From Pseudomonadota bacterium (lineage in GTDB: Bacteria > Myxococcota > Polyangia > Polyangiales > Polyangiaceae): DNA of 10,838 nucleotides. Positions within the stretch are counted from its first letter, which is position 1, and every line of letters starts with the position of its first letter. The position numbers and the translations under genes are program-made. Under the pieces are notes generated by a model. It had not been told where the DNA came from. It saw only the letters and a program-made list of their open reading frames with translations, and made no database searches. The stretch covers positions 1-10,838 of the forward strand of contig JAEZYO010000668.1 in NCBI GenBank assembly GCA_023419055.1, in the 5' to 3' direction. Positions 1 through 10,838 of this stretch are shown in pieces.

Positions 1-786
1 GTGCTGAACGTGGTGGGAGAAGCGGCCGAGAGCGGGACCATTCACCCGGCGGCCGCGGAGATCTCCACGCGCGCGCTCGAGTTCGTGAACACGGCGGTCG
101 GCCGCGTCATGGTCCCCCGCTCGCGCATCGTGGCCATTCCGCGCAACGCCGACGAGAACACGATCAAGCAGGTCGCGCTCGAGCATGGCTTTTCGCGGTT
201 CCCGGTCTACGGCAAGGACCTCGACGACATCGTCGGGTACGTGCTCGTCAAGGACATGCTCGCCATCGCGTGGGAGCGACAGCTCGTCGTGCTCGAGGAC
301 TTGATACGGCCTCCGTGGGTGGTGAGCGAGATGTCGCGCGGGCCGGAGGTGTTGAAGCAGATGCAAGACGAGCGCGTGCACCTCGCGGTCGTCGTCGACG
401 AGCACGGCGGCACCGCCGGCATCGTCACGATGGAGGATCTGCTCGAGGAGCTGGTGGGCGAGATCACGAGCGAGCTCGCCGAGCCGGAGCCGCGCTCGGT
501 GCGCCTGCAGCCCGATGGATCGGCACTCGCCCGCGGCGACGCGACCGTGCGCGAGGTGAACCGCGAGCTCGATCTCGCCCTCCCGGAGGGCGACAGCTAC
601 AGCACGTTGGGCGGCCTGTGCTCCGTGCTCGCCGGCCACTTGCCGAGGGAGAAGGAGGAGCTCTGGTCGCCGGACGGCACGCGGCTCGTCGTGGTGAAGG
701 CGACCCCTCGGGCGGTGCTCGAGGTCAGGATCTGCCGCGGTCACTCGGGCGGCCTGGGTGAGCCCGAGCCGCAAATGGGCGAGTGA
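1..786 (+). CDS. CorC/HlyC-family CBS-domain membrane protein, 5'-truncated
   Basis: This is the C-terminal 261 residues of a DUF21-CBS-CorC_HlyC protein, a family of inner-membrane proteins implicated in Mg/Co or other cation transport. Seen here: a first CBS motif at about residues 36-90 (including VMVPRSRIV and GFSRFPVY), a second at about 104-155 carrying the diagnostic VVDEHGGTAGIVTMEDLLEE block, and a C-terminal CorC_HlyC (transporter-associated) domain at about 168-245. The N-terminal transmembrane DUF21 domain normally present is missing. The reading frame is open from base 1, so the gene almost certainly begins upstream and the GTG at base 1 is probably internal. The stop is TGA 784-786. 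A 253-bp gap separates it from the next gene, so it is probably not part of the downstream operon. The family assignment is secure; the transported ion cannot be told from sequence. Confidence 0.93.
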   Translation: MLNVVGEAAESGTIHPAAAEISTRALEFVNTAVGRVMVPRSRIVAIPRNADENTIKQVALEHGFSRFPVYGKDLDDIVGYVLVKDMLAIAWERQLVVLEDLIRPPWVVSEMSRGPEVLKQMQDERVHLAVVVDEHGGTAGIVTMEDLLEELVGEITSELAEPEPRSVRLQPDGSALARGDATVREVNRELDLALPEGDSYSTLGGLCSVLAGHLPREKEELWSPDGTRLVVVKATPRAVLEVRICRGHSGGLGEPEPQMGE

Positions 787-1013: not shown

Positions 1014-1040
1014 GGAGCTAGTGTGCCGACATTCCCGTGA
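1013..1040 (+). other. possible leader mini-ORF with Shine-Dalgarno site
   Basis: AGGAG at 1013-1017 is the only good ribosome-binding site ahead of the operon. It is too far (about 19-22 nt) from the GTG (1037) or ATG (1040) of the B12-binding gene, but sits 5 nt before GTG 1023. That GTG opens a five-codon reading frame (V-P-T-F-P) ending at TGA 1038-1040, which overlaps ATG 1040 as TGATG. Translation could therefore start on the leader and reinitiate at the B12 gene. This is an inference from spacing only; a five-codon frame may be coincidental. Confidence 0.25.
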
Positions 1041-1702
1041 TGGCAGCGCGCATCGAGCCGCCCCACCCGTTGCTTTCGCCTTATTTGAAGGCGCAGCTGC
1101 GCGGCGAGCGCGAGGAGGCGCTCCGCCTGGTGCTGGAGGACGGCCTCGGGCGCGGCCTCTCGATCAAGGAGCTCGAGCTCGACGTCTTGCAGGCGGCGCA
1201 GCGCGAGGTCGGCAGGCTCTGGCAGAAGAACCAGGTCAGCGTGGCGGAGGAGCACCTCGCGACCAGCGTCACGCAGCTCGTGATGTCGCACCTGTATCGC
1301 CACCTGCCGCGTGAGAGGCACAACGGCAAGGTCGCGCTCGTGGCCTGCGTCGAGGGTGAGCTCCACGACATGGGCGGGCGCTTCGGCGCCGACTTCCTCG
1401 AGATGGCAGGCTTCGAGGTGCGCTTCCTCGGCGCGAACGTCCCGACGCAGAGCCTGCTCGCGATGGTGGAGCGAGATCGCCCGGACGTCCTCGGGCTGTC
1501 GGCGGCGATGAGCTTCCATTTGCCCGCCCTGCGCGCGGCGATCGACGGCGTGCGAGCGCTCCGCGGCGCGGAGTATCCCATCATCGTGGGAGGGCACGTG
1601 CTCGAGTGGTCGCCCGAGCTCTCGCGGGAGCTCGGCGTTCAAGTCCTCGGCACCTGCGCGGACCGGCTCGTGAAGGGGTGCAGGGAGTACCTCGGGTGCT
1701 GA
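1040..1702 (+). CDS. stand-alone cobalamin-binding protein with B12-photoreceptor-type motif
   Basis: A 220-residue soluble protein with the two-part cobalamin module: a helical cap at about residues 10-88 and a Rossmann-like B12-binding domain at about 96-218. In the cap, W61 followed by E71-H72 gives the Wx9EH signature. In CarH/LitR-type photoreceptors these residues cover the upper axial face of adenosylcobalamin and make the complex light-sensitive. In the Rossmann part, ELHDMG (E107, H109, G112) matches the ExHxxG base-off/His-on motif, H109 being the predicted lower cobalt ligand. LGLSAAMS (S154) and IIVGGH (G184-G185) fit the nucleotide-tail loops. Unlike CarH there is no MerR DNA-binding domain. 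I chose ATG 1040 over the adjacent GTG 1037 because of the TGATG overlap with the upstream mini-ORF; an in-frame TAG at 1019-1021 rules out longer starts. It is the first gene of the operon and overlaps the next by 7 bp. B12 binding is well supported; light sensing is inference. Confidence 0.9.
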   Translation: MAARIEPPHPLLSPYLKAQLRGEREEALRLVLEDGLGRGLSIKELELDVLQAAQREVGRLWQKNQVSVAEEHLATSVTQLVMSHLYRHLPRERHNGKVALVACVEGELHDMGGRFGADFLEMAGFEVRFLGANVPTQSLLAMVERDRPDVLGLSAAMSFHLPALRAAIDGVRALRGAEYPIIVGGHVLEWSPELSRELGVQVLGTCADRLVKGCREYLGC

Positions 1703-2397
1703 CGCGGACCGAGCTCGCTTCCGCGCTCGAGCGGCTCGCGCCACGCCTCGGCGAGCGCGCGCGCAGGCGCCTGTACGAGGATCCCTTCTGGCTCCTGCGC
1801 TACGGCGAGCGCGGCGTGAGGCACTCGCGAGAAGACGGCGATTTTCACCTGAAGTATCTCTGCCAGGCGCTCAGGGAGGGCGACCCCGGCCTGCTCGCGA
1901 GGTACGGCGTCTGGCTCCGCTCGCTGCTCGTCTCGCGGGGCATGTGCAGCCGCCACCTGGCCGACAACTTCACCTACTTGATCGACGAGCTTCGCCTGGA
2001 GCTCCCCCCCGAGGAGGCCGAGCTCGCCTCCGGTTACCTCCACGCGGCCGCGCGCTCTCTCGAGTACTCGGAGGGCCCCGCGGGGGCTCTCTCTGCTCGC
2101 GCGGCGTCGGTGATCGCCCGGGTCGAGCGCGAGCTCGCACCGCCGAGTCCCCCGCTCTCGCGCGAGGTGGCGTCGGTGACGTCCTACCTGGCTGACGCGC
2201 TCGCCGAGGGAAAGCCCGAGATCTTGACGGCGTACCTCGACGTTCTGCAAAGCTCCGACGAGTTCGTGCTCTCGACGCGTGTGGCCGAGCTCCTCGACGC
2301 GCTGTCGCGCGCCGTCGTGGCCGAGCTCGAAGACTCGCCGGCACGCGCCGTCCTCGACGTCGTTGCCGAAGCGCGGAACAAGCGAGTCATCGCATGA
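1696..2397 (+). CDS. all-helical phycobiliprotein/BBAG-like globin (putative bilin-binding), with internal repeat
   Basis: A 233-residue, predicted all-helical soluble protein. GTG 1696 is chosen as start because GGGAG (1683-1687) lies 8 nt upstream and longer versions would run deep into the preceding gene. Residues 44-63 (S-R-E-D-G-D-F-H-L-K-Y-L-C-Q-A-L-R-E-G-D) align without gaps to the phycocyanin beta-subunit segment starting at its bilin Cys84 (C-L-R-D-G-E-I-I-L-R-Y-V...AGD), as I recall that sequence. D47 falls on Asp87, which contacts the bilin pyrroles, while Cys84 is replaced by S44. The following helix fits too (LLxxY, then LR about nine residues on). Together with the bilin reductase two genes downstream, this suggests a bilin biosynthesis-associated globin, a phycobiliprotein paralogue found beside pre-PcyA reductases in non-photosynthetic bacteria. 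Residues 54-74 recur at 164-184 (10 of 21 identical), suggesting an internal duplication. The assignment rests on remembered sequences, so it is moderate; otherwise the gene is a real hypothetical. Confidence 0.6.
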   Translation: MLTRTELASALERLAPRLGERARRRLYEDPFWLLRYGERGVRHSREDGDFHLKYLCQALREGDPGLLARYGVWLRSLLVSRGMCSRHLADNFTYLIDELRLELPPEEAELASGYLHAAARSLEYSEGPAGALSARAASVIARVERELAPPSPPLSREVASVTSYLADALAEGKPEILTAYLDVLQSSDEFVLSTRVAELLDALSRAVVAELEDSPARAVLDVVAEARNKRVIA

Positions 2398-2696
2398 TCG
2401 TGGTCACTTCACGCATCGTCGTCGTGAGCGACAACGCGGACGAGGTCGCGCACGCGTACGCCACGCGTTTGCGGCGCGCCGAAGCGGCGCCCGGCTGTCT
2501 CGGCATCGAGATTCTGCGGCACCTCGAGCGGCCCGGTGAGTTCGTGGTCTACTCTCGCTGGCGGGCGCTCGACGACTACGAGGCGTACCGCCGCTCGGAC
2601 GCGTTCAAGGCGGCGCACGCGCGCATCGGCGCCATGGGCACGACGCCGAAGGTCTCCCACGATCGTTCGCTCGACGCGTACGAGGTGCTCTCGTGA
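2394..2696 (+). CDS. antibiotic biosynthesis monooxygenase (ABM/IsdG-fold) domain protein
   Basis: A 100-residue single-domain protein of the dimeric ferredoxin-like ABM fold, closest in pattern to HmoA/HmoB/IsdG heme-degrading monooxygenases. These start MIVVTN-R and carry a C-terminal segment like SDVFKAAH. Seen: MIVVTSRI at the N-terminus, APGCLGIEILR (about 32-42), GEFVVYSRW (48-56) and SDAFKAAH (68-75). H75 matches the proximal heme-ligand His of IsdG. The other two residues of the IsdG Asn-Trp-His triad are changed: S6 where Asn is expected and Y65 where Trp is expected. It may therefore bind heme or a bilin without classical heme cleavage, or use altered chemistry. The ATG overlaps the preceding stop as ATGA and its stop overlaps the next GTG, so translation is coupled on both sides. 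Its place before a bilin reductase makes a tetrapyrrole substrate plausible. The fold is secure, the activity is not. Confidence 0.87.
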   Translation: MIVVTSRIVVVSDNADEVAHAYATRLRRAEAAPGCLGIEILRHLERPGEFVVYSRWRALDDYEAYRRSDAFKAAHARIGAMGTTPKVSHDRSLDAYEVLS

Positions 2697-3403
2697 GCGG
2701 CTTCGGCTTCGTCGGCGCGCTCGAGCGCTCGGAGGCGGAGCTCGCGGAGCGGCTGTCTCTCGAGCGGATCGCGCTCCCGGCCGGCCTCGAGGGCGCGAGC
2801 GGCACCCTGCGCGGCAACCCCGCGACCATCGAGGCCCGCGCCTACCGAGGCCCCAGGATCGCCTACGCGCGCTTCGTGGCGCTGCAAGGCGCGGGTATCG
2901 AAATCGCGAACCTGCTGTGCTTCGGGAGCGCCACCTACCGCGTTCCGATCTTCGGCGCCGACCTGGTTGCCGTGACTCCGCGCCGAGCCATGCTCGCTGC
3001 CGACCTCACCCCGACCACGCGCGACGGCGCTTTCTGGAGAGAGCAGCTCTCGCCGCTCGCGGAACGTCGCTCCCGGGCCGAGGCGTTGCCCGACGGAGGC
3101 GAGCTGCCGAGCTACTGCGCGAGCTTCTTCTCGAACCTCTACCTCTACGTCCGGGTCGAGCCGGAGCAGCGCGAAGCAGCGCTCGCGAGCTTCGGCGACT
3201 ATTCCACCGTGTACGCGGAGCTCTTGGAGCGCTCGCTGCCCTCGCCCGAGCACTCGGAGCAGGTGTCGAGCTTGCAGCGCGACTACTCGATTTCGCACCG
3301 GAGCGACGACCACGGGCTCGAGCTCCTGTCGAAGGCGTTCGGCAAAGGCTTCGCGCAGGAGTTCATCGCGCGAGTGCTCTTTCCGGCAGAGGTGGCGGCA
3401 TGA
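2693..3403 (+). CDS. ferredoxin-dependent bilin reductase (PcyA/HY2 superfamily, pre-PcyA-like)
   Basis: A 236-residue soluble protein, close to the usual 240-250 of ferredoxin-dependent bilin reductases, which reduce biliverdin with electrons from ferredoxin. It aligns through its length with cyanobacterial PcyA: LPAGL (28-32) with LPEDL; IEARAY (46-51) with the IENRCY region; GAGIEI (66-71); YRVPIFGADLVA (82-93) with YGLPLFGCDIVA; ADLTPT (103-108); and a C-terminal SKAFGKGFAQEFIARVLFP (213-231) like EKAFGEAWAERYMSQVLF. Catalytic D90 matches PcyA Asp105. PcyA Glu76 and His88 are replaced by F61 and N73, and D205 lies where many PebA/PebS/HY2 enzymes have their C-terminal Asp. The product is therefore unlikely to be phycocyanobilin made by the normal four-electron route. 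Start GTG 2693 overlaps the preceding stop by 4 bp; a longer in-frame start is not needed. It lies two genes after the BBAG-like globin, an arrangement known for pre-PcyA enzymes. The family call is strong; exact regiochemistry is unknown. Confidence 0.87.
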   Translation: MSGFGFVGALERSEAELAERLSLERIALPAGLEGASGTLRGNPATIEARAYRGPRIAYARFVALQGAGIEIANLLCFGSATYRVPIFGADLVAVTPRRAMLAADLTPTTRDGAFWREQLSPLAERRSRAEALPDGGELPSYCASFFSNLYLYVRVEPEQREAALASFGDYSTVYAELLERSLPSPEHSEQVSSLQRDYSISHRSDDHGLELLSKAFGKGFAQEFIARVLFPAEVAA

Positions 3404-5433
3404 CGACCTACGGGACGGAAGCGTTCGAGGGCACGAGTCGTGAGTTTCAGCTCGTTTGCGACGAGAAGGGGGCGATCGTCTGGCTCGACGATCGCGCCCG
3501 ACACGTGCTCGGCGGCGAGGTCGGGCGCTCGCTCTACGACTGGGCTGCGCCGGGCACGGAAGAGAAGGTCGCGAGCCTGCTCGCCCGCGCGACGGTGAAC
3601 GATTCTCGCGCCTGGGAGCTCGCGCTTTGCCTGGACGGCGCGCCGAGGACGCTCGCCTTCCGCTCGAAGCCGCTCGCGGAGGCGCAGGTCGCCCTGACCG
3701 GCAGCCTGGTGCCCGAGGACTACGGGCAGGCCTTGATGCAGGTGAGCGCGAACCTCTCCGAGCTCGCGAGCCTCCACCGCGAGACCGATAGGCAGCAGCG
3801 CGAGCTCCTACGGCGGCACGAAGCGCTGCTCCGCCAGCAACGCGAGCTCGAGGACAGCTACAAGGGCATGGTCGCCCTGCACGCGGAGATCGGCGAGAAG
3901 GACGACTCGCTCCGCCGCGCGTCCGAGGTCAAGTCGCGCCTGGTCGCGAACGTCAGCCACGAATTTCGCACGCCGCTGAACTCGATCCTGGGCCTCACCA
4001 AGCTGCTCCTGAGCCGCGCGGACGGAGAGCTGACGGGCGAGCAGGAGAAGCAGCTCGGCTTCGTGCTGCAGTCGGCGGAGTCGCTGTACGCGCTCGTGAA
4101 CGACCTGCTCGATCTCTCCAAGATGGAGGCGGGCAAGGTCGCGCTCCGGGCCGAGAAGTTCGCGGCGCAGAGCCTGTTCGCGTCGCTCCGAGGCATGCTG
4201 CGCCCGATCGCTCCGCAGGGTCCGGTCGAGCTCGTGTTCGACGCGCCCGAAGCGCCCGTCGAGCTCGAGACCGACGAGACCAAGGTCATGCAGGTGTTGC
4301 GGAACCTGATCTCGAACGCCTTGAAATTCACCTCGCAAGGCGAGGTGAGGGTCAGGGTCGCGCTCGATCCGAACGATCGGGTGCGCTTCAGCGTCTCCGA
4401 CACCGGCGTCGGCATCGCCGCGGAGCACCAGGCCCGGATCTTCGAGGAGTTCTTCCAAGTGGACGGCCCGCTGCAGCGGGAGGTGAAGGGTACGGGGCTC
4501 GGCTTGCCGATCGCCCGCAACCTGGTCGAGCGCCTGGGCGGCACGCTCACCGTGAAGAGCGTGGAGGGGCAAGGCTCGACCTTCGAGTTCTCGATCCCGA
4601 GGCGGCACCCCGAGGTCAGCGAGTACGCCGCGCTCGCGGAGCGCAGCCGTCACACCGAGCCGGGCCAGTCGCCGGTGCTCGTGGTCGAAGACGATCGGCA
4701 GACGCTGTTCCTGTACGAGAAATACCTGCGCGGCTCGGGGTTCCAGGTGATCCCCGCGCGCACGGTGGAGGAGGCGCGGGCCGCGCTCGCCCGCGTTCGG
4801 CCCTCCGCCGTGGTGCTCGACATCATGCTCGACGGTGAGGCCTCCTGGACGTTCCTGCACGATCTCAAGAGCAACGAGCGGACCCGCGACATCCCGGCCC
4901 TGGTCGTGACCGTGACCAACCGCGAGGACAAGGCGCGCGCGCTCGGAGCGGACGAGTTTTTCATGAAGCCGATGGAGCGCGAGTGGCTGGTCTCCAAGCT
5001 GAGATCGCTCGCTCGCACCCAGGCGGTCGAGACCGTGCTCGTGATCGACGACGATCAGGTCGCGCGTTACCTCGTGAAGAAGCACCTGTCCGGGCTGCCC
5101 TACGACGTGATCGAGGCGTCGAGCGGCGTGGAGGGCGTTAGGCTCGCCAGGCAGCGCTTGCCGAGCGTCGTCTTCCTCGATTTCGTGATGCCGGAGATGA
5201 GCGCGTTCGACGTGATCGACGAGCTCAAGAAGGATCCGGCGACCCGCAACATCCCCATCATCATCCACACGTCGAAGAACCTGGCCGAGGAGGAGCGCAA
5301 GCGCCTCGAGGTGGAGGCCTCGGCCATTTTGAGCAAGCAGAGCTTGTCGCGCGAGATCGCGATCGGGCGCATTCGCGAGGCGCTCGAGAAGGCGGTGCGA
5401 ACACCGCGCGTCGAGGAGCAGATCCATGGTTGA
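3400..5433 (+). CDS. soluble hybrid histidine kinase, PAS-HisKA-HATPase-REC-REC
   Basis: A 677-residue cytoplasmic sensor kinase without transmembrane segments or signal peptide. Order: a PAS-like domain (about 14-105), a charged coiled coil (about 115-178), HisKA with phospho-acceptor H187 in SHEFRTPLN, and HATPase_c with N-box N306 (NLISNALKF), G1 DTGVGI (334-339), F-box FEEFFQ and G2 GTGLGL (364-369). Two receiver domains follow. REC1 (about 425-537) has E430/D431 and D432, phospho-acceptor D474, T504 and K523 (MKP). REC2 (about 545-662) has D550-D552, D594, T624 and K646. ATG 3400 overlaps the bilin reductase stop as ATGA; reading the frame upstream would only enter the reductase gene. 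With no membrane sensor, the signal is likely cytosolic, through the PAS domain or a partner such as the B12 or globin proteins made from the same transcript. No output domain is present, so phosphoryl transfer to another protein is expected. Confidence 0.96.
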   Translation: MTTYGTEAFEGTSREFQLVCDEKGAIVWLDDRARHVLGGEVGRSLYDWAAPGTEEKVASLLARATVNDSRAWELALCLDGAPRTLAFRSKPLAEAQVALTGSLVPEDYGQALMQVSANLSELASLHRETDRQQRELLRRHEALLRQQRELEDSYKGMVALHAEIGEKDDSLRRASEVKSRLVANVSHEFRTPLNSILGLTKLLLSRADGELTGEQEKQLGFVLQSAESLYALVNDLLDLSKMEAGKVALRAEKFAAQSLFASLRGMLRPIAPQGPVELVFDAPEAPVELETDETKVMQVLRNLISNALKFTSQGEVRVRVALDPNDRVRFSVSDTGVGIAAEHQARIFEEFFQVDGPLQREVKGTGLGLPIARNLVERLGGTLTVKSVEGQGSTFEFSIPRRHPEVSEYAALAERSRHTEPGQSPVLVVEDDRQTLFLYEKYLRGSGFQVIPARTVEEARAALARVRPSAVVLDIMLDGEASWTFLHDLKSNERTRDIPALVVTVTNREDKARALGADEFFMKPMEREWLVSKLRSLARTQAVETVLVIDDDQVARYLVKKHLSGLPYDVIEASSGVEGVRLARQRLPSVVFLDFVMPEMSAFDVIDELKKDPATRNIPIIIHTSKNLAEEERKRLEVEASAILSKQSLSREIAIGRIREALEKAVRTPRVEEQIHG

Positions 5434-7372
5434 GAGCCAGACACTCGTCCTCAACGTCAACGACGACGCCGCGACGCGCTACTTGATGAGCAACATCTTG
5501 AAGCGCGGCGGCTACGAGGTCATCGAGGCCTCGAACGGCACGGACGCGCTCGAGCTCGTGGCGCGGCGGCGCCCGTCGCTCGTGCTGCTCGACGTGAAGT
5601 TGCCCGACGTGAGCGGGCTCGAAGTCTGCCGCAGGATCAAGGCGGAGCCCGCCTTGTCGACCACGTTGGTGGTGCAAACCTCGGCGACCTTCGCGTCGAG
5701 CGCGCGCAAGATCGAGGGCCTCGAGAGCGGCGCGGACGCCTACCTGGCTCAGCCCATCGAGTCGCTCGAGCTGCTCGCCACGGTCAAGGCGATGCTGCGC
5801 ACGCAGCGCGCCGAAGAGGAGCAGAAGCGCTCGGCGCGCAAGCTCCAGCGCACCTTCAACGCCATCTCGGACGCGCTCCTCCTGCTCACGCCTGCCGGCA
5901 AGATCGATCAGGTGAACGACGCGACGCTCGCCCTCCTCGAGCGGCAGGGCGAGTCGCTCGTGGGACAGAGCGCGGCCGACGTGCTGTCGGGGCTCGTCGG
6001 GCCCGAGGTGGTGGGCGATCTCGTGAACGGCTCGCAGACGGGACGGCGCGAGCACGAGTTCTCGAGCGGCGAGCGCTATTTCCGGCTGAGCGCGGACCCC
6101 GTCAGGCTGAACGGGGGCCCGCTCGAGGGCACGGTGCTCATCCTGAGCGATCTCACGGACCGGCGGCGGCTCGAGGAGCAACAGCGCCTGCGCGCCGAGG
6201 AGCTCACCGAGGCGGGGCGGCGCAAGGACGAGTTCCTGGCGATGCTCGCCCACGAGCTCCGGAACCCCCTGAACGCGATCGGCGCGGCCTCGAGCATGGT
6301 CGGGCGCGCGGCGCAGAAGGACGAGACGCTGCTCCGGCTGCAGACCATCATCAGCCGTCAGGTGCGGAACCTGGCGCGCATGGTCGACGACCTGCTCGAG
6401 GTGTCGCGCATCAACCGCGGCCAGCTCCAGCTCCGCCGGCAGGCGCTCGATTTCACGGGCGTGCTCCGTCAGGCGGTGCAGGGGATCCAGGGCTCGCTCG
6501 AGGGGCGCAAGCAGACGCTCTCGCTCAGCGTGCCGGACGAGCCTTTGATCCTGGACGGCGACGACCTCCGGCTCGAGCAGGTGATCTTGAACCTGCTCGC
6601 GAACGCCTCGAAGTACTCCGAGCCGGGCTCCACCATCAGCGTCTACCTCGAGCGCTCGCCGCGCGGCACGGCGCTGCTCCGCGTGCGGGATCAAGGCATC
6701 GGGATCCCTCGCGAACAGCTCGAGAAGATCTTCGAGCCCTTCGTGCAGGTCGATCAGTCCCTGTCGAGGTCGCTGGGCGGGCTCGGCATCGGGCTCAGCA
6801 TGGTAAAGAGCCTGGTCGAGCTCCACGGTGGCAAGGTGAGCGCGCGGAGCACCGGCGTCGGTCGCGGCTCCGAGTTCGTGGTGGAGCTGCCGCTCTACGA
6901 GAGTGAGATCACGACCTCGCCGAACCTGGCTTCCCAGACGGAGCGGCGCGAGAAGCTGCTCGAGCCGCTCAGCGTGCTGGTGGTCGAGGACAACAACGAC
7001 ACGCGCGAGGTCCTGCTCGAGTGGCTCGAGCTCATGGGACACTCGGTGCGCGGCGCGAGCGACGGCAAGCAAGGGCTCGAGCTCGCGCTCAGCCTGAAGC
7101 CCGACGTCGCGCTCGTCGACATCGGTCTGCCCGCCGTGGACGGCTACGAGGTCGCGAAGAACTTGCGCGCCTCCGAGGGCGGCAGCGACGTCTACCTGGT
7201 GGCGGTGTCGGGCTACGGTCGCCCGGAAGATCGCGCTCGCGCGCTCGACGCGGGCTTCGACGCCTACGTGGTCAAGCCGGTCGACGAAGAAGCGCTCCGC
7301 CGGGCCCTCGGCGGGCGCGGCGACGCCGGACGCAGAGCACGGGCAGGGTCGACGAACGCCCACGTCGCGTAG
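5426..7372 (+). CDS. soluble hybrid histidine kinase, REC-PAS-HisKA-HATPase-REC
   Basis: A 648-residue cytoplasmic kinase. An N-terminal receiver (about 5-125) has D13/D14, phospho-acceptor D56 and T85, but Q109 replaces the usual receiver Lys (AQP instead of KP), so its phosphorylation-linked switching may be altered. A PAS domain (about 138-245) follows, then HisKA with H276 in AHELRNPLN, and HATPase_c with N393 (NLLANASKY), G1 DQGIGIP (422-428), FEPFVQ (436-441) and a glycine-rich G2 loop GGLGIGL (451-457). A C-terminal receiver (about 515-628) has E521/D522, D565, S595 and K617 (VKP). The tail after 628 is Arg/Gly-rich and probably disordered. ATG 5426 has GAGGAG at 5412-5417 (8-nt spacing) and overlaps the previous gene by 8 bp. 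A leading receiver suggests this kinase accepts phosphate from, or is gated by, another kinase, most simply its operon partner. It is the last gene of the operon. Confidence 0.96.
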   Translation: MVESQTLVLNVNDDAATRYLMSNILKRGGYEVIEASNGTDALELVARRRPSLVLLDVKLPDVSGLEVCRRIKAEPALSTTLVVQTSATFASSARKIEGLESGADAYLAQPIESLELLATVKAMLRTQRAEEEQKRSARKLQRTFNAISDALLLLTPAGKIDQVNDATLALLERQGESLVGQSAADVLSGLVGPEVVGDLVNGSQTGRREHEFSSGERYFRLSADPVRLNGGPLEGTVLILSDLTDRRRLEEQQRLRAEELTEAGRRKDEFLAMLAHELRNPLNAIGAASSMVGRAAQKDETLLRLQTIISRQVRNLARMVDDLLEVSRINRGQLQLRRQALDFTGVLRQAVQGIQGSLEGRKQTLSLSVPDEPLILDGDDLRLEQVILNLLANASKYSEPGSTISVYLERSPRGTALLRVRDQGIGIPREQLEKIFEPFVQVDQSLSRSLGGLGIGLSMVKSLVELHGGKVSARSTGVGRGSEFVVELPLYESEITTSPNLASQTERREKLLEPLSVLVVEDNNDTREVLLEWLELMGHSVRGASDGKQGLELALSLKPDVALVDIGLPAVDGYEVAKNLRASEGGSDVYLVAVSGYGRPEDRARALDAGFDAYVVKPVDEEALRRALGGRGDAGRRARAGSTNAHVA

Positions 7373-7517
7373 CGCGGCGTCCGAGAAAATAGCCGCTACG
7401 GCGCCGGTTTCGCGCAGAAAACGCGGTTGCTCGTCGAGGGCGGGCGGAGGTTCCGGCGAAGATTTCCTCGTTCTACGGCTTCCGGGCTATCCTCCCGCGT
7501 CGTCGTAAGAGGTGGCA

Positions 7518-8528
7518 GTGTTCCGCAGAACGTTTCTCAGTCTTGCGCTCGGTCTCCTTTCGCTCGCTTGTGGGAAAAAGCAGGAGGGCAGCCCCGAAGG
7601 CGGTGGACCCACGGAGAAGGGGAAGCCCCGCATCGCGGTCATTCCGAAGGGCACGACGCACGAGTTCTGGAAGGCCGTCCACGCCGGCGCCGTGAAGGCC
7701 GGTCGCGAGAGCAACGTCGACGTGGTGTGGAAGGGGCCGCTCAAGGAAGACGATCTCAAGAGCCAGATCGAGCTCGTGCAGACGTTCACCGCGCAGAGGG
7801 TTTCGGGCATCGTGCTCGCGCCGCTCAACGACACGGCCCTCGCCGCGTCCGTGAAGGCAGCCGAGCGGGCCAAGATCCCGGTCGTGATCTTCGACTCCGA
7901 TCTCAAGGGAGCGAGCTACGCGAGCTTCGTCGCGACCGACAACCGAGCCGCGGGGAAGCTCGCCGGAGAGCGCCTGGCCAAGCTCATCGGCGAGAAGGGC
8001 AACGTCGTGCTCTTGCGCTACCAGGAGGGCTCGGCGAGCACGAACCACCGGGAAGAAGGCTTCCTCGAGGCCATCAAGGCTTTCCCCGACATCGAGGTCG
8101 TGAGCGACAACCAGTACGGCGGCGCCACCACGGAGAGCGCGTTCTCCGCGAGCGAGAACTTGCTGCTCGCGAAGAGCGCCGCGAAGGGTGAAGTCGCCGG
8201 AGTGTTTACGCCCAACGAGTCGACGACGTTCGGCATGCTGCTCGCGCTCCGCAAGGCTGGGCTCGGCGGCAAGGTTCGCTTCATCGGCTTCGACGCCTCG
8301 GAGAAGCTCGTGGAAGGGGTGAAGGCGGGCGAGATCGACGCGCTCGTGCTCCAAAACCCGTTCAACATCGGCTACCTCGCGGTCAAGACCATGGCCGAGC
8401 ACCTGAAGGGGGCGAAGGTCGAGCCGCGCATCGACACCGGGGCGACGCTCGCCGACAAGGCGAACCTGGATCGACCCGCCGTGAAGGAGCTGCTCGCGCC
8501 CGACCTCAAGCAGTGGCTGGGCGAGTGA
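7518..8528 (+). CDS. sugar-type ABC transporter substrate-binding lipoprotein (Peripla_BP_4, RbsB-like)
   Basis: A 336-residue periplasmic-binding protein of the RbsB/LacI-fold group that delivers a small solute, usually a sugar or polyol, to the importer encoded downstream. Residues 1-17 form a signal peptide with an Arg pair and a hydrophobic core, ending in LLSLAC. C18 is the likely lipidation site, although Ser at -3 is atypical for a lipobox. A Lys/Gly/Pro-rich linker follows (about 19-37), then two alpha/beta lobes. Binding-type residues by analogy with RbsB are F50-W51, D126/D128, R178, N233, D259 (GFDA) and Q279 (LQNP). GTG 7518 is chosen because AAGAGG (7507-7512) lies 5 nt upstream; the in-frame GTG at 7512 is too close to that site. 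A 145-bp gap separates it from the kinase operon, so it probably has its own promoter, though none is convincing. Its end overlaps the ATPase start by 4 bp. Substrate is unknown. Confidence 0.93.
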   Translation: MFRRTFLSLALGLLSLACGKKQEGSPEGGGPTEKGKPRIAVIPKGTTHEFWKAVHAGAVKAGRESNVDVVWKGPLKEDDLKSQIELVQTFTAQRVSGIVLAPLNDTALAASVKAAERAKIPVVIFDSDLKGASYASFVATDNRAAGKLAGERLAKLIGEKGNVVLLRYQEGSASTNHREEGFLEAIKAFPDIEVVSDNQYGGATTESAFSASENLLLAKSAAKGEVAGVFTPNESTTFGMLLALRKAGLGGKVRFIGFDASEKLVEGVKAGEIDALVLQNPFNIGYLAVKTMAEHLKGAKVEPRIDTGATLADKANLDRPAVKELLAPDLKQWLGE

Positions 8529-10015
8529 GCGAGCGCTTCACGGCGAGGGCGATCGGGAAGCGCTTCGGCGCGGCGCAAGCGCTCGACGGCGCGGATCTCT
8601 CGGCGCGCGCGGGCGAGGTGCACGCGATCATCGGCGAGAACGGCGCGGGCAAGAGCACCCTGATGAAGGTGCTCGCGGGAGCCGTCACCCCTGATTCGGG
8701 GACGATGTTGCTCGACGGGCGCCCTTTCGCGCCCCGCGGTCCTTCGGAGGCGCGTGATCGGGGCGTGACGATCGTCTATCAGGAGCCGCTGCTCTGCCGA
8801 GATCTCACGGTCGCCGAGAACGTGCTGCTCGGCGTGGAGCCCACGCGAGCCGGCTTCGTGCGGCGGAGCGAGGCCCACCTCCGCGCCGAGCGCGCGCTCG
8901 AGCTCGTGCGGACGCCCGAGCAGACCCACCTCCGCCCGGGGGCGCTCGTGAAGTGGCTCACGCCGAGCGAGCGGCAGCTCGTCGCCATCGCGCGAGCGCT
9001 CGCCCAGGCCGACTGTCGCGTGCTGATCCTGGACGAGCCGACGGCGAGCCTCACGCGGGAGGACGGCGAGCGGCTGTTCGCGGTGATCCGCCGCCTCAAG
9101 GAGCGAGAGATCACGGTGCTCTACATCTCGCACTTCCTGGAGGAGGTCGAGAAGATAGCCGACCGTTATACCGTGCTCCGCGACGGTCGTACGGTCGCGA
9201 GCGGCGAGGTGGCCGCGACGTCGCGCAGCGAGCTCGTCACGAGCATGGCGGGCAAGCGCGTCGAGGAGCTCTTCCCTCGTTCGAGCCGCTCTCCGGGGGA
9301 GGTGCTGCTCTCGGTCGATTCGCTCGCGGGTCAGCGCTTGCCGAAGTCGGCGACGCTCGAGCTCAGGCGCGGCGAGGTGCTCGGGGTCGCGGGCCTCGTC
9401 GGGTCGGGTCGTACCGAGCTATTGCGAGCCATTTTCGGCCTCGATCCCGTCCGCAGCGGCACGCTGCGCGTGGCAAGCTTCTCGGGATCGGCCTCACCCA
9501 ACAGGCGCCTCGCGCAGGGGGTCGGCCTCTTGAGCGAAGACCGCAAGCACGAGGGCCTGGCGGAGACCCTCAGCGTCGCCGAGAACATCACGCTCTCGAA
9601 GCTCGGCGGCCTCGGGCGGTTCGGCTTCGTGGTCCCTTCTGCCAGGCGCCGCGTGGCCGAAGGCTTCATCGAGCGCCTCGGGATCCGCTGCCGCGATCCC
9701 GAGCAACGCGTCGCCGATCTGTCCGGCGGCAATCAGCAGAAGGTCGCGCTCGCGCGGCTGTTGCACCACGACGTCGACGTCTTCTTGCTGGACGAACCGA
9801 CGCGCGGCATCGACGTCGGTAGCCGCTCCGCCGTCTACCGCGTGATCGACGAGCTTGCGGCCCGCGGCAAGGCGGTGCTCATGGTCTCGAGCTACCTGCC
9901 CGAGCTCCTCGGCGTGACGGATCGCATCGCGGTCATGACGCGCGGGATCCTCGGACCGGCACGCCCGACCCACGAGAGGAGCGAGCACGAGCTCCTCCTG
10001 GAGGCGACCGCCTGA
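8525..10015 (+). CDS. ABC sugar-type importer ATPase with two nucleotide-binding domains (RbsA/MglA-like)
   Basis: A 496-residue double ATPase, the usual length for RbsA/MglA/XylG proteins that energise CUT2-type sugar uptake. NBD1: Walker A GENGAGKST (37-45), Q-loop Q86, a divergent signature LTPSERQ (145-151), Walker B VLILDEPT with E171, and H-loop H203. NBD2 (from about 258) has a degenerate Walker A, GLVGSGRTE (290-298), lacking the Lys, and SEDRKHEG (337-344). It then has a complete signature LSGGNQQK (399-406), Walker B FLLDEPTRGID (420-430), and Ser/Tyr in place of the switch His (VSSYLPE). This asymmetry is normal in the family: one site hydrolyses ATP, the other mainly binds. GTG 8525 overlaps the binding-protein stop as GTGA; the alternative in-frame GTG at 8513 would overlap by 16 bp with no benefit. 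Its stop overlaps the permease ATG by one base. Confidence 0.96.
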   Translation: MSERFTARAIGKRFGAAQALDGADLSARAGEVHAIIGENGAGKSTLMKVLAGAVTPDSGTMLLDGRPFAPRGPSEARDRGVTIVYQEPLLCRDLTVAENVLLGVEPTRAGFVRRSEAHLRAERALELVRTPEQTHLRPGALVKWLTPSERQLVAIARALAQADCRVLILDEPTASLTREDGERLFAVIRRLKEREITVLYISHFLEEVEKIADRYTVLRDGRTVASGEVAATSRSELVTSMAGKRVEELFPRSSRSPGEVLLSVDSLAGQRLPKSATLELRRGEVLGVAGLVGSGRTELLRAIFGLDPVRSGTLRVASFSGSASPNRRLAQGVGLLSEDRKHEGLAETLSVAENITLSKLGGLGRFGFVVPSARRRVAEGFIERLGIRCRDPEQRVADLSGGNQQKVALARLLHHDVDVFLLDEPTRGIDVGSRSAVYRVIDELAARGKAVLMVSSYLPELLGVTDRIAVMTRGILGPARPTHERSEHELLLEATA

Positions 10016-10838
10016 TGAACGAACGGGTGAACTCAGCGGCCAGAAGAGCCGCCTCGGTGCAGACGCTGCTGTCGTTGCCCTGGCTCGGTCCGTTCATCGC
10101 GCTCGTGCTGGTGTACGCGCTCTTCACGGCGCTCGTCCCGGACACGTTCGCCGGCGGGGTGAACCTGGTCACGATGTTGCGGCAGACTGCGGTGGTCGGG
10201 ATCGCCGCCGTCGGCATGTCGCTCGTGATCGTGAAGGGCGGCATCGATCTCTCGGTCGGTTCCGCCGTGGCCCTGGTCACGGTCATCATCGCGACGGCCC
10301 TTCGCGCGGGCCACGGTCCTTACGTCGCCGCGCTCGCCGGGGTGGCAGCCGGCGCGCTCACTGGCGCCGTCAACGGCGCGCTCACCGCGAGCCTCCGCAT
10401 CACGCCGTTCATCGTGACGCTCGGCACGATGAGCGTGCTGCGCGGCGCCGCCAAGGGCCTCGCCGACGAGCAGAAGATCGACGCGGATCCTCGTGGCCTG
10501 GATCACCTGATGGCGATGATGCCCGGCGAAGACTTCGTCGCGCCGCCCTGGGGAGTCTGGATCGCGCTCTTGGTCGCTCTGGCTGGCGCGACCCTGCTCG
10601 GTTACACCCGCTTCGGCCGCCACGTGGTGGCGATCGGCTCGAACGAGCTCACCGCGCGCCTGTGTGGCGTGCCGGTGCCGCGCGTGACGGTGCTCACCTA
10701 CGCGATCGCGGGGCTCCTCGCGGGCGTTGCCGGCGTCCTCGAGTATTCGACGCTCACGGTCGGAGATCCGACCGACTCCGTCGGGCTGGAGCTCGAAGTG
10801 ATCGCTGCCGTCGTGATTGGCGGCGTCTCGCTCTCGGG
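10015..10838 (+). CDS. ABC sugar-type importer permease (RbsC-like), 3'-truncated
   Basis: An open frame from ATG 10015 (TGATG overlap with the ATPase stop) runs to the window end, giving 274 complete codons of a family usually about 310-350 long. It is a multi-pass inner-membrane permease of the BPD_transp_2 family. Residues 1-22 are polar and cytoplasmic, and several hydrophobic segments follow (for example about 24-41, 58-74, 80-97, 103-122, 181-196, 226-243). Family landmarks are GGIDLSVGS (75-83), TPFIVTLGT (130-138), TRFGRHVVAIGSN (198-210) and EVIAAVVIGGVSL (261-273), which begins the conserved block that couples to the ATPase. It forms the channel for the solute captured by the lipoprotein two genes upstream. 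The missing C-terminus should hold the last one or two helices. Confidence 0.96.
   Translation, partial: MNERVNSAARRAASVQTLLSLPWLGPFIALVLVYALFTALVPDTFAGGVNLVTMLRQTAVVGIAAVGMSLVIVKGGIDLSVGSAVALVTVIIATALRAGHGPYVAALAGVAAGALTGAVNGALTASLRITPFIVTLGTMSVLRGAAKGLADEQKIDADPRGLDHLMAMMPGEDFVAPPWGVWIALLVALAGATLLGYTRFGRHVVAIGSNELTARLCGVPVPRVTVLTYAIAGLLAGVAGVLEYSTLTVGDPTDSVGLELEVIAAVVIGGVSLS

Follow-up and report, generated by a model that had tools for sequence, protein, structure and literature searches.

The six same-strand genes carried by the window, the whole 10,838-nucleotide stretch of DNA analysed here, are best explained, with modest confidence, as a split photocobilin controlling a two-kinase phosphorelay, in which an ABM protein and a ferredoxin-dependent bilin reductase (FDBR) supply the bilin. 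Gene content, fold, motifs and co-occurrence are direct observations. Two features are new in this survey: a hybrid-kinase pair as constant partner of the sensor, and a group of Ser-type ABM proteins linked to globin/B12 genes. The features of the window are:

1040..1702, + strand: B12-binding protein with a CarH/photocobilin-type cobalamin module (220 aa; GxxW-x9-EH, GxxH, GxxxP; PDB matches)
1696..2397, + strand: BBAG-2-type globin (233 aa; RGMC at residues 81-84; two globin-like halves)
2394..2696, + strand: ABM/IsdG-like protein, candidate heme oxygenase (100 aa; Ser6, Tyr65, His75)
2693..3403, + strand: FDBR (236 aa; PcyA-type aspartate, FGxD, kept)
3400..5433, + strand: HK1 hybrid kinase (1-165, conserved N-terminal stretch plus coiled coil; HisKA, HATPase, two receivers)
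5426..7372, + strand: HK2 hybrid kinase (648 aa; receiver-PAS_4-HisKA-HATPase-receiver)

The genes, from 1040 to 7372, overlap at every junction, by 7, 4, 4, 4 and 8 bp, as an earlier note on this DNA had described for a six-gene overlapping unit. Its interpretation holds for the unit, the gene assignments, the gene order and the separate sensory subunits; it does not hold for the novelty of the B12/bilin pairing, and the ABM gene was left uninterpreted, so that a candidate role in chromophore supply was missed. The surrounding genes look unrelated. Upstream, window positions 1-786 encode the 3' part of a CBS-pair/CorC_HlyC protein. Downstream, on the same strand (7512-10836), a periplasmic sugar-binding-type protein (PF13407) is followed by an ATP-binding protein and a permease of an ABC importer, as judged by sequence. 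Rfam at gathering thresholds returned no matches within the window, and a promoter and terminator scan of the window gave no signal above chance level.

The B12 protein finds its best PDB matches in the photocobilins 8j2y, 8j2w and 8j2x and the cobalamin protein 8jbs. It shares with CarH a B12 module with GxxW-x9-EH and GxxH, whereas the DNA-binding domain of CarH is missing and the probable output is a kinase; against the NCBIfam CarH model it scores 60.9 bits, with a cut-off of 400. Screening for light-responsive cobalamin domains by the full CarH-type light motif, GxxW-x9-EH...GxxH...GxxxP, has been recommended (PMC11796333). The motif is present in the window protein and in all 19 B12 proteins linked to HK1, and the photocobilin of locus L139 gave no match to it. 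Since B12 and heme enzymes are able to signal the status of metabolites, the cluster might sense a chemical cue, such as cobalamin supply, heme, oxygen or redox, and not light; this is improbable in view of the conserved light motif and of the globin fold, which is that of light-absorbing biliproteins.

The globin has a phycobiliprotein fold and the RGMC motif that marks BBAG-2 proteins, in agreement with the bilin-type globin of the earlier note. It is a tandem of two globin-like halves (HHalign 99.1% between halves), with the RGMC cysteine motif in the first half only. Two BBAG-2 proteins have been found to bind biliverdin and to be photoinert alone (PMC10151467); by analogy, the window globin probably binds a bilin, and a globin that is photoinert by itself fits a role as antenna. 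For photocobilins, Zhang et al. (2024, PMC10979010) showed that exciting the biliverdin leads to photolysis of B12, that a form with biliverdin only undergoes no obvious change, and that stand-alone members can exert their effect by contact with proteins. Light-type B12 motifs in a CarH-type module, together with a phycobiliprotein-fold globin partner for a bilin, are common to photocobilins and the window, and the protein-contact output of the stand-alone form is a further likeness. The window differs from the fused photocobilin chain in that B12 protein and globin are separate genes (1040-1702 and 1696-2397), in the Cys motif and second globin-like half of its globin, and in its probable target, HK1. 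Elsewhere, locus L161 (8414-9943) encodes a protein with two globin-like stretches before a B12 domain, followed by two kinase genes.

The joining of B12 to bilin, which the earlier note took, together with the hybrid-kinase phosphorelay, for a version it did not recognise, is not new: B12/biliverdin coupling has been published for photocobilins, and the trio of B12-binding protein, RGMC globin and FDBR corresponds to the pre-2 group of Rockwell, Martin and Lagarias (2023, PMC10151467), where the genes for a pre-2 FDBR, a B12-binding protein and BBAG-2 form a stereotyped cluster of three, in some cases with a heme oxygenase (HO). The window has this FDBR with an adjacent B12-binding protein and globin. 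It departs from the pre-2 cluster as given in the main text of that paper, three genes with HO clustered or elsewhere, by an ABM gene in place of a clustered HO and by the conserved hybrid-kinase pair. The same main text makes no mention of histidine kinase, monooxygenase or Isd, and contains "kinase" once, in a reference; a literature search with partial coverage found no paper on the HK1-HK2 pair or the linked ABM. It has been proposed that the phycobiliproteins and the phycocyanobilin synthesis of cyanobacteria arose from pre-PcyA/BBAG clusters, and pre-2 was stated to be largely confined to delta-proteobacteria (PMC10151467). RGMC-globin FDBR clusters were also seen in Chloroflexota (L001, L002, L004 and L143), the first three of these in Thermomicrobiales.

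The FDBR family profile aligns to PcyA, which bears out the PcyA/HY2-type assignment of the earlier note, and the FGxD aspartate, read as PcyA Asp105, is invariant in the alignment. In the FDBR tree, whose rows include seven of the 51 lower-ranked scan loci mentioned below and no named pre-2 sequence such as CAP_1520, the window protein lies apart from the PcyA of cyanobacteria. It belongs to a clade of 18 rows (99/98) that also holds ABM-linked FDBRs from Chloroflexota and kinase-linked FDBRs from myxobacteria. Within this clade the tree as drawn does not group the ABM-linked rows together, though several forks are open; perhaps ABM was gained or lost more than once.

A scan of genome contigs with single proteins returned no relatives, unlike the alignment-based scan, which gave 55 loci. 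Gene order was read for the best four of the 55, and the other 51 are nearly all cyanobacterial. The order is B12-globin-FDBR-HK1-HK2, without ABM, in L003 (a Polyangiaceae MAG), B12-globin-ABM-FDBR in L004 (a Thermomicrobiaceae MAG), and globin-ABM-FDBR in L001 and L002 (Thermomicrobiales MAGs). The window globin, ABM and FDBR also have close relatives in metagenomes, and the lengths of their longest contigs are equal (13,816 and 15,193), which suggests the same gene order there. The survey was then based on 317 genomes from the class of the L003 genome, which we take to be Polyangia. The BBAG profile matched 46 of the 317 at E <= 1e-3, and in 15 of these the match lay below 1e-40. HK1 orthologs, 47-62% identical to the HK1 of the window or of L003, adjoin B12 and globin genes in 13 of these 15 strong loci; the two strong globin loci lacking HK1 are L132, a 12-kb contig on which a B12 gene was not detected, and L135. 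FDBR genes occur in four of the 15 (L003, L122, L127, L135) and ABM in none. Conservation of gene order in relatives, proposed earlier as a check, is thus seen as B12-globin-FDBR-HK1-kinase in L003, L122 and L127.

HK1 and HK2 each carry HisKA, HATPase_c and receiver domains and are hybrid histidine kinases; the histidine of HK1 lies in SHEFRTP (from 186). No Pfam match to a GAF/PHY chromophore domain was obtained in either at E <= 1, consistent with the earlier suggestion that the chromoproteins act as separate subunits. With 12 candidates per genome scored, the HK1 N-terminal profile gave 21 matches in 20 of the 317 genomes, the weakest at 2.3e-39, and no others up to the 1e-8 limit. An HK2-like kinase follows HK1 at all 21 loci (shorter in L127), and 19 of the 21 hold a B12 gene in the cluster, 13 with globin and six without (L276-L281). 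Because of these counts, B12, HK1 and HK2 look like the core and the bilin genes like an addition; the bilin genes are less constant than the kinase pair, a point that the earlier note had missed. The two remaining pairs, in genomes G181 and G359, have no B12 gene nearby and a B12-ABM-globin locus elsewhere (L284, L285). L276-L281, where HK1-HK2 and a CarH-motif B12 protein stand with no adjacent globin, represent a bilin-free form of the system. The predicted structure of the HK1 N-terminus from a single sequence reached a pLDDT of 55.6. A weak resemblance to this region, to which the coiled coil contributes in part, is seen in kinases that adjoin fused photocobilins (L159 1e-8, L158 1e-7). 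At L158 a stop-to-stop frame hinted at a single-chain photocobilin-kinase; this was rejected, as globin-B12 and kinase lie in different frames, adjacent and unfused.

The HK1 loci with B12 and no globin agree with another reading, in which the bilin genes serve a different receptor, e.g., a phytochrome elsewhere, while B12-HK1-HK2 works alone and the co-location reflects shared regulation. The pre-2 enzyme CAP_1520 indeed made phytochromobilin, which loaded a phytochrome, and BBAG-2 took biliverdin (PMC10151467). However, the globin stays beside B12 and HK1 in 10 loci lacking FDBR (L123-L126, L128-L131, L133, L134), and photocobilins show both pigments as one working unit (PMC10979010), making a separate bilin receptor quite improbable.

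The ABM protein matches its domain model (PF03992) at 5.3e-18. Of the Asn-Trp-His catalytic triad of IsdG (PMC6018153), His75 is retained, Ser6 replaces Asn and Tyr65 replaces Trp. The fold family and axial His are thus common to IsdG/MhuD/HmoA-type monooxygenases and the window protein, which differs in the two substitutions and in its setting, bilin photosensing and not iron uptake. ABM matches at E <= 1e-8 were obtained in 12 of the 317 genomes; the best seven, unlike the other five, all adjoin globin/B12 genes. An eighth linked Polyangia ABM (G709, L139), outside those 12 genomes, was found through the globin search. Linked ABM proteins occur with globin/B12 genes in both Chloroflexota and Myxococcota. 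Across the 12 genomes with a linked ABM, the Asn position is Ser in 11 and Phe in G709, the axial His is kept in all, and the Trp position is Tyr in six and Trp in six. Unlinked ABMs of the same two classes (the Chloroflexota class and Polyangia), for which a B12 or globin gene was not detected within about 1.5 kb on each side, have Asn in 22 of 23, with one gap. Among homologs of the window ABM, with context read for a minority, 15 of 16 reach the Asn position and all 15 have Ser. In three loci (L136 7792-8703, L137 2886-4007, L139 8191-9126) an ABM domain forms one protein with a PAS-like/coiled-coil region and no kinase; these fusions have a C-terminal Cys motif and lie directly 5' of a globin-B12 (photocobilin) gene.

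The change of Asn to Ser may mean altered chemistry or loss of chemistry, and the loss of Asn, and in the window of Trp, may have cost the protein its activity as a heme oxygenase. For this reason some weight is given to a photosensor-kinase system in which the ABM is a heme or bilin chaperone, a delivery factor or a signalling subunit and another enzyme supplies the biliverdin. This is an unlikely alternative, still one to be taken seriously; it accommodates the kinase-free ABM fusions and the canonical HO of several Polyangia genomes described below, and is harder to reconcile with the axial His kept throughout. Known IsdG enzymes yield staphylobilin or mycobilin and not biliverdin (PMC6018153), and the products of Chlamydomonas LFO1, of the IsdG family, differ from biliverdin (PMC9393634), which counts against an ABM making biliverdin.

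The distribution of canonical HO, scored as PF01126, bears on this point. HO is found in 14 of 15 globin genomes without a linked ABM (the exception is G707), in 10 of them inside the cluster, against a same-cluster count of 0/12 with a linked ABM. Anywhere in the genome, HO occurs in five of the 12 ABM-linked genomes: in five of eight Polyangia, of which G747 and G153 have partial matches only, and in none of four Chloroflexota, where the ABM adjoins globin and FDBR genes. The 13 FDBR-match genomes of the Chloroflexota class, whose HO base rate is 28/158, have HO in 0/4 with a linked ABM vs 7/9 of the others (G419 and G488 have neither). Fisher tests, which ignore kinship and for which genome completeness is not given, yielded p = 0.0085 for HO anywhere, 0.0004 for HO in the cluster and 0.015 for FDBR-bearing genomes. 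The absence of HO from ABM-bearing clusters and the Chloroflexota contrast argue against a purely accessory ABM. A strict genome-wide either/or of ABM and HO was rejected; it holds in clusters and fails across genomes. HO is absent from the four genomes scored that have B12-HK1-HK2 and no adjacent globin (G343, G727, G374, G372), which have just weak globin-like matches elsewhere. Set beside the 14 of 15 globin genomes without a linked ABM, this shows canonical HO going along with the globin, in favour of the split photocobilin. The photocobilin genomes G597, G712 and G738 also lack HO (0/3) and, by tblastn, a linked ABM, so the source of bilin is not always visible.

In the favoured mechanism, the B12 protein would bind adenosylcobalamin as the photoswitch, with light breaking the Co-C bond and altering the dimer, and the globin would hold a bilin beside it, optical coupling extending sensitivity to red light. 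This photochemistry, bilin binding and coupling are presumed from published photocobilins and BBAG-2 proteins. The ABM, as a heme oxygenase replacing the canonical enzyme, would make the bilin from heme, and the FDBR may tune it. The altered B12/globin complex would act on HK1 at its conserved N-terminal region and its coiled coil, and phosphate would pass through HK1 and HK2 receivers to an unlinked output; co-occurrence only is what suggests the ABM activity, the action on HK1, the relay and its direction. The split photocobilin is weakened by HO elsewhere in five ABM-linked genomes, by L132 and L135 without HK1 and by G181 and G359 without nearby B12. It is proposed more tentatively, at somewhat below an even chance, that the Ser-type ABM group is an alternative heme oxygenase for B12/bilin photoreceptors, feeding FDBR and globin, with B12, HK1 and HK2 as phosphorelay core and the bilin antenna as an option. 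With a conserved kinase as partner, BBAG-2 acquires a role that can be tested, that of antenna to a B12 photoswitch, and an output that can be assayed. Should the ABM make biliverdin, it would open a separate route to the bilins of photoreceptors and offer optogenetics a small gene for supplying chromophore.

An output gene was sought by ORF clustering of the window and 28 loci, with a crude caller that overlooked some genuine genes and accepted some antisense frames; beyond the kinase, B12, globin and FDBR groups, no family occurred in more than six loci. The remaining shared neighbour families mostly reflect synteny of L123-L126, L129 and L130. Receivers usually carry Lys-Pro at a site where, by eye, the first receiver of HK2 (window 5426-7372) reads AQP; Gln is also there in the HK2 of L003, L127 and L131, and this is perhaps an atypical receiver.
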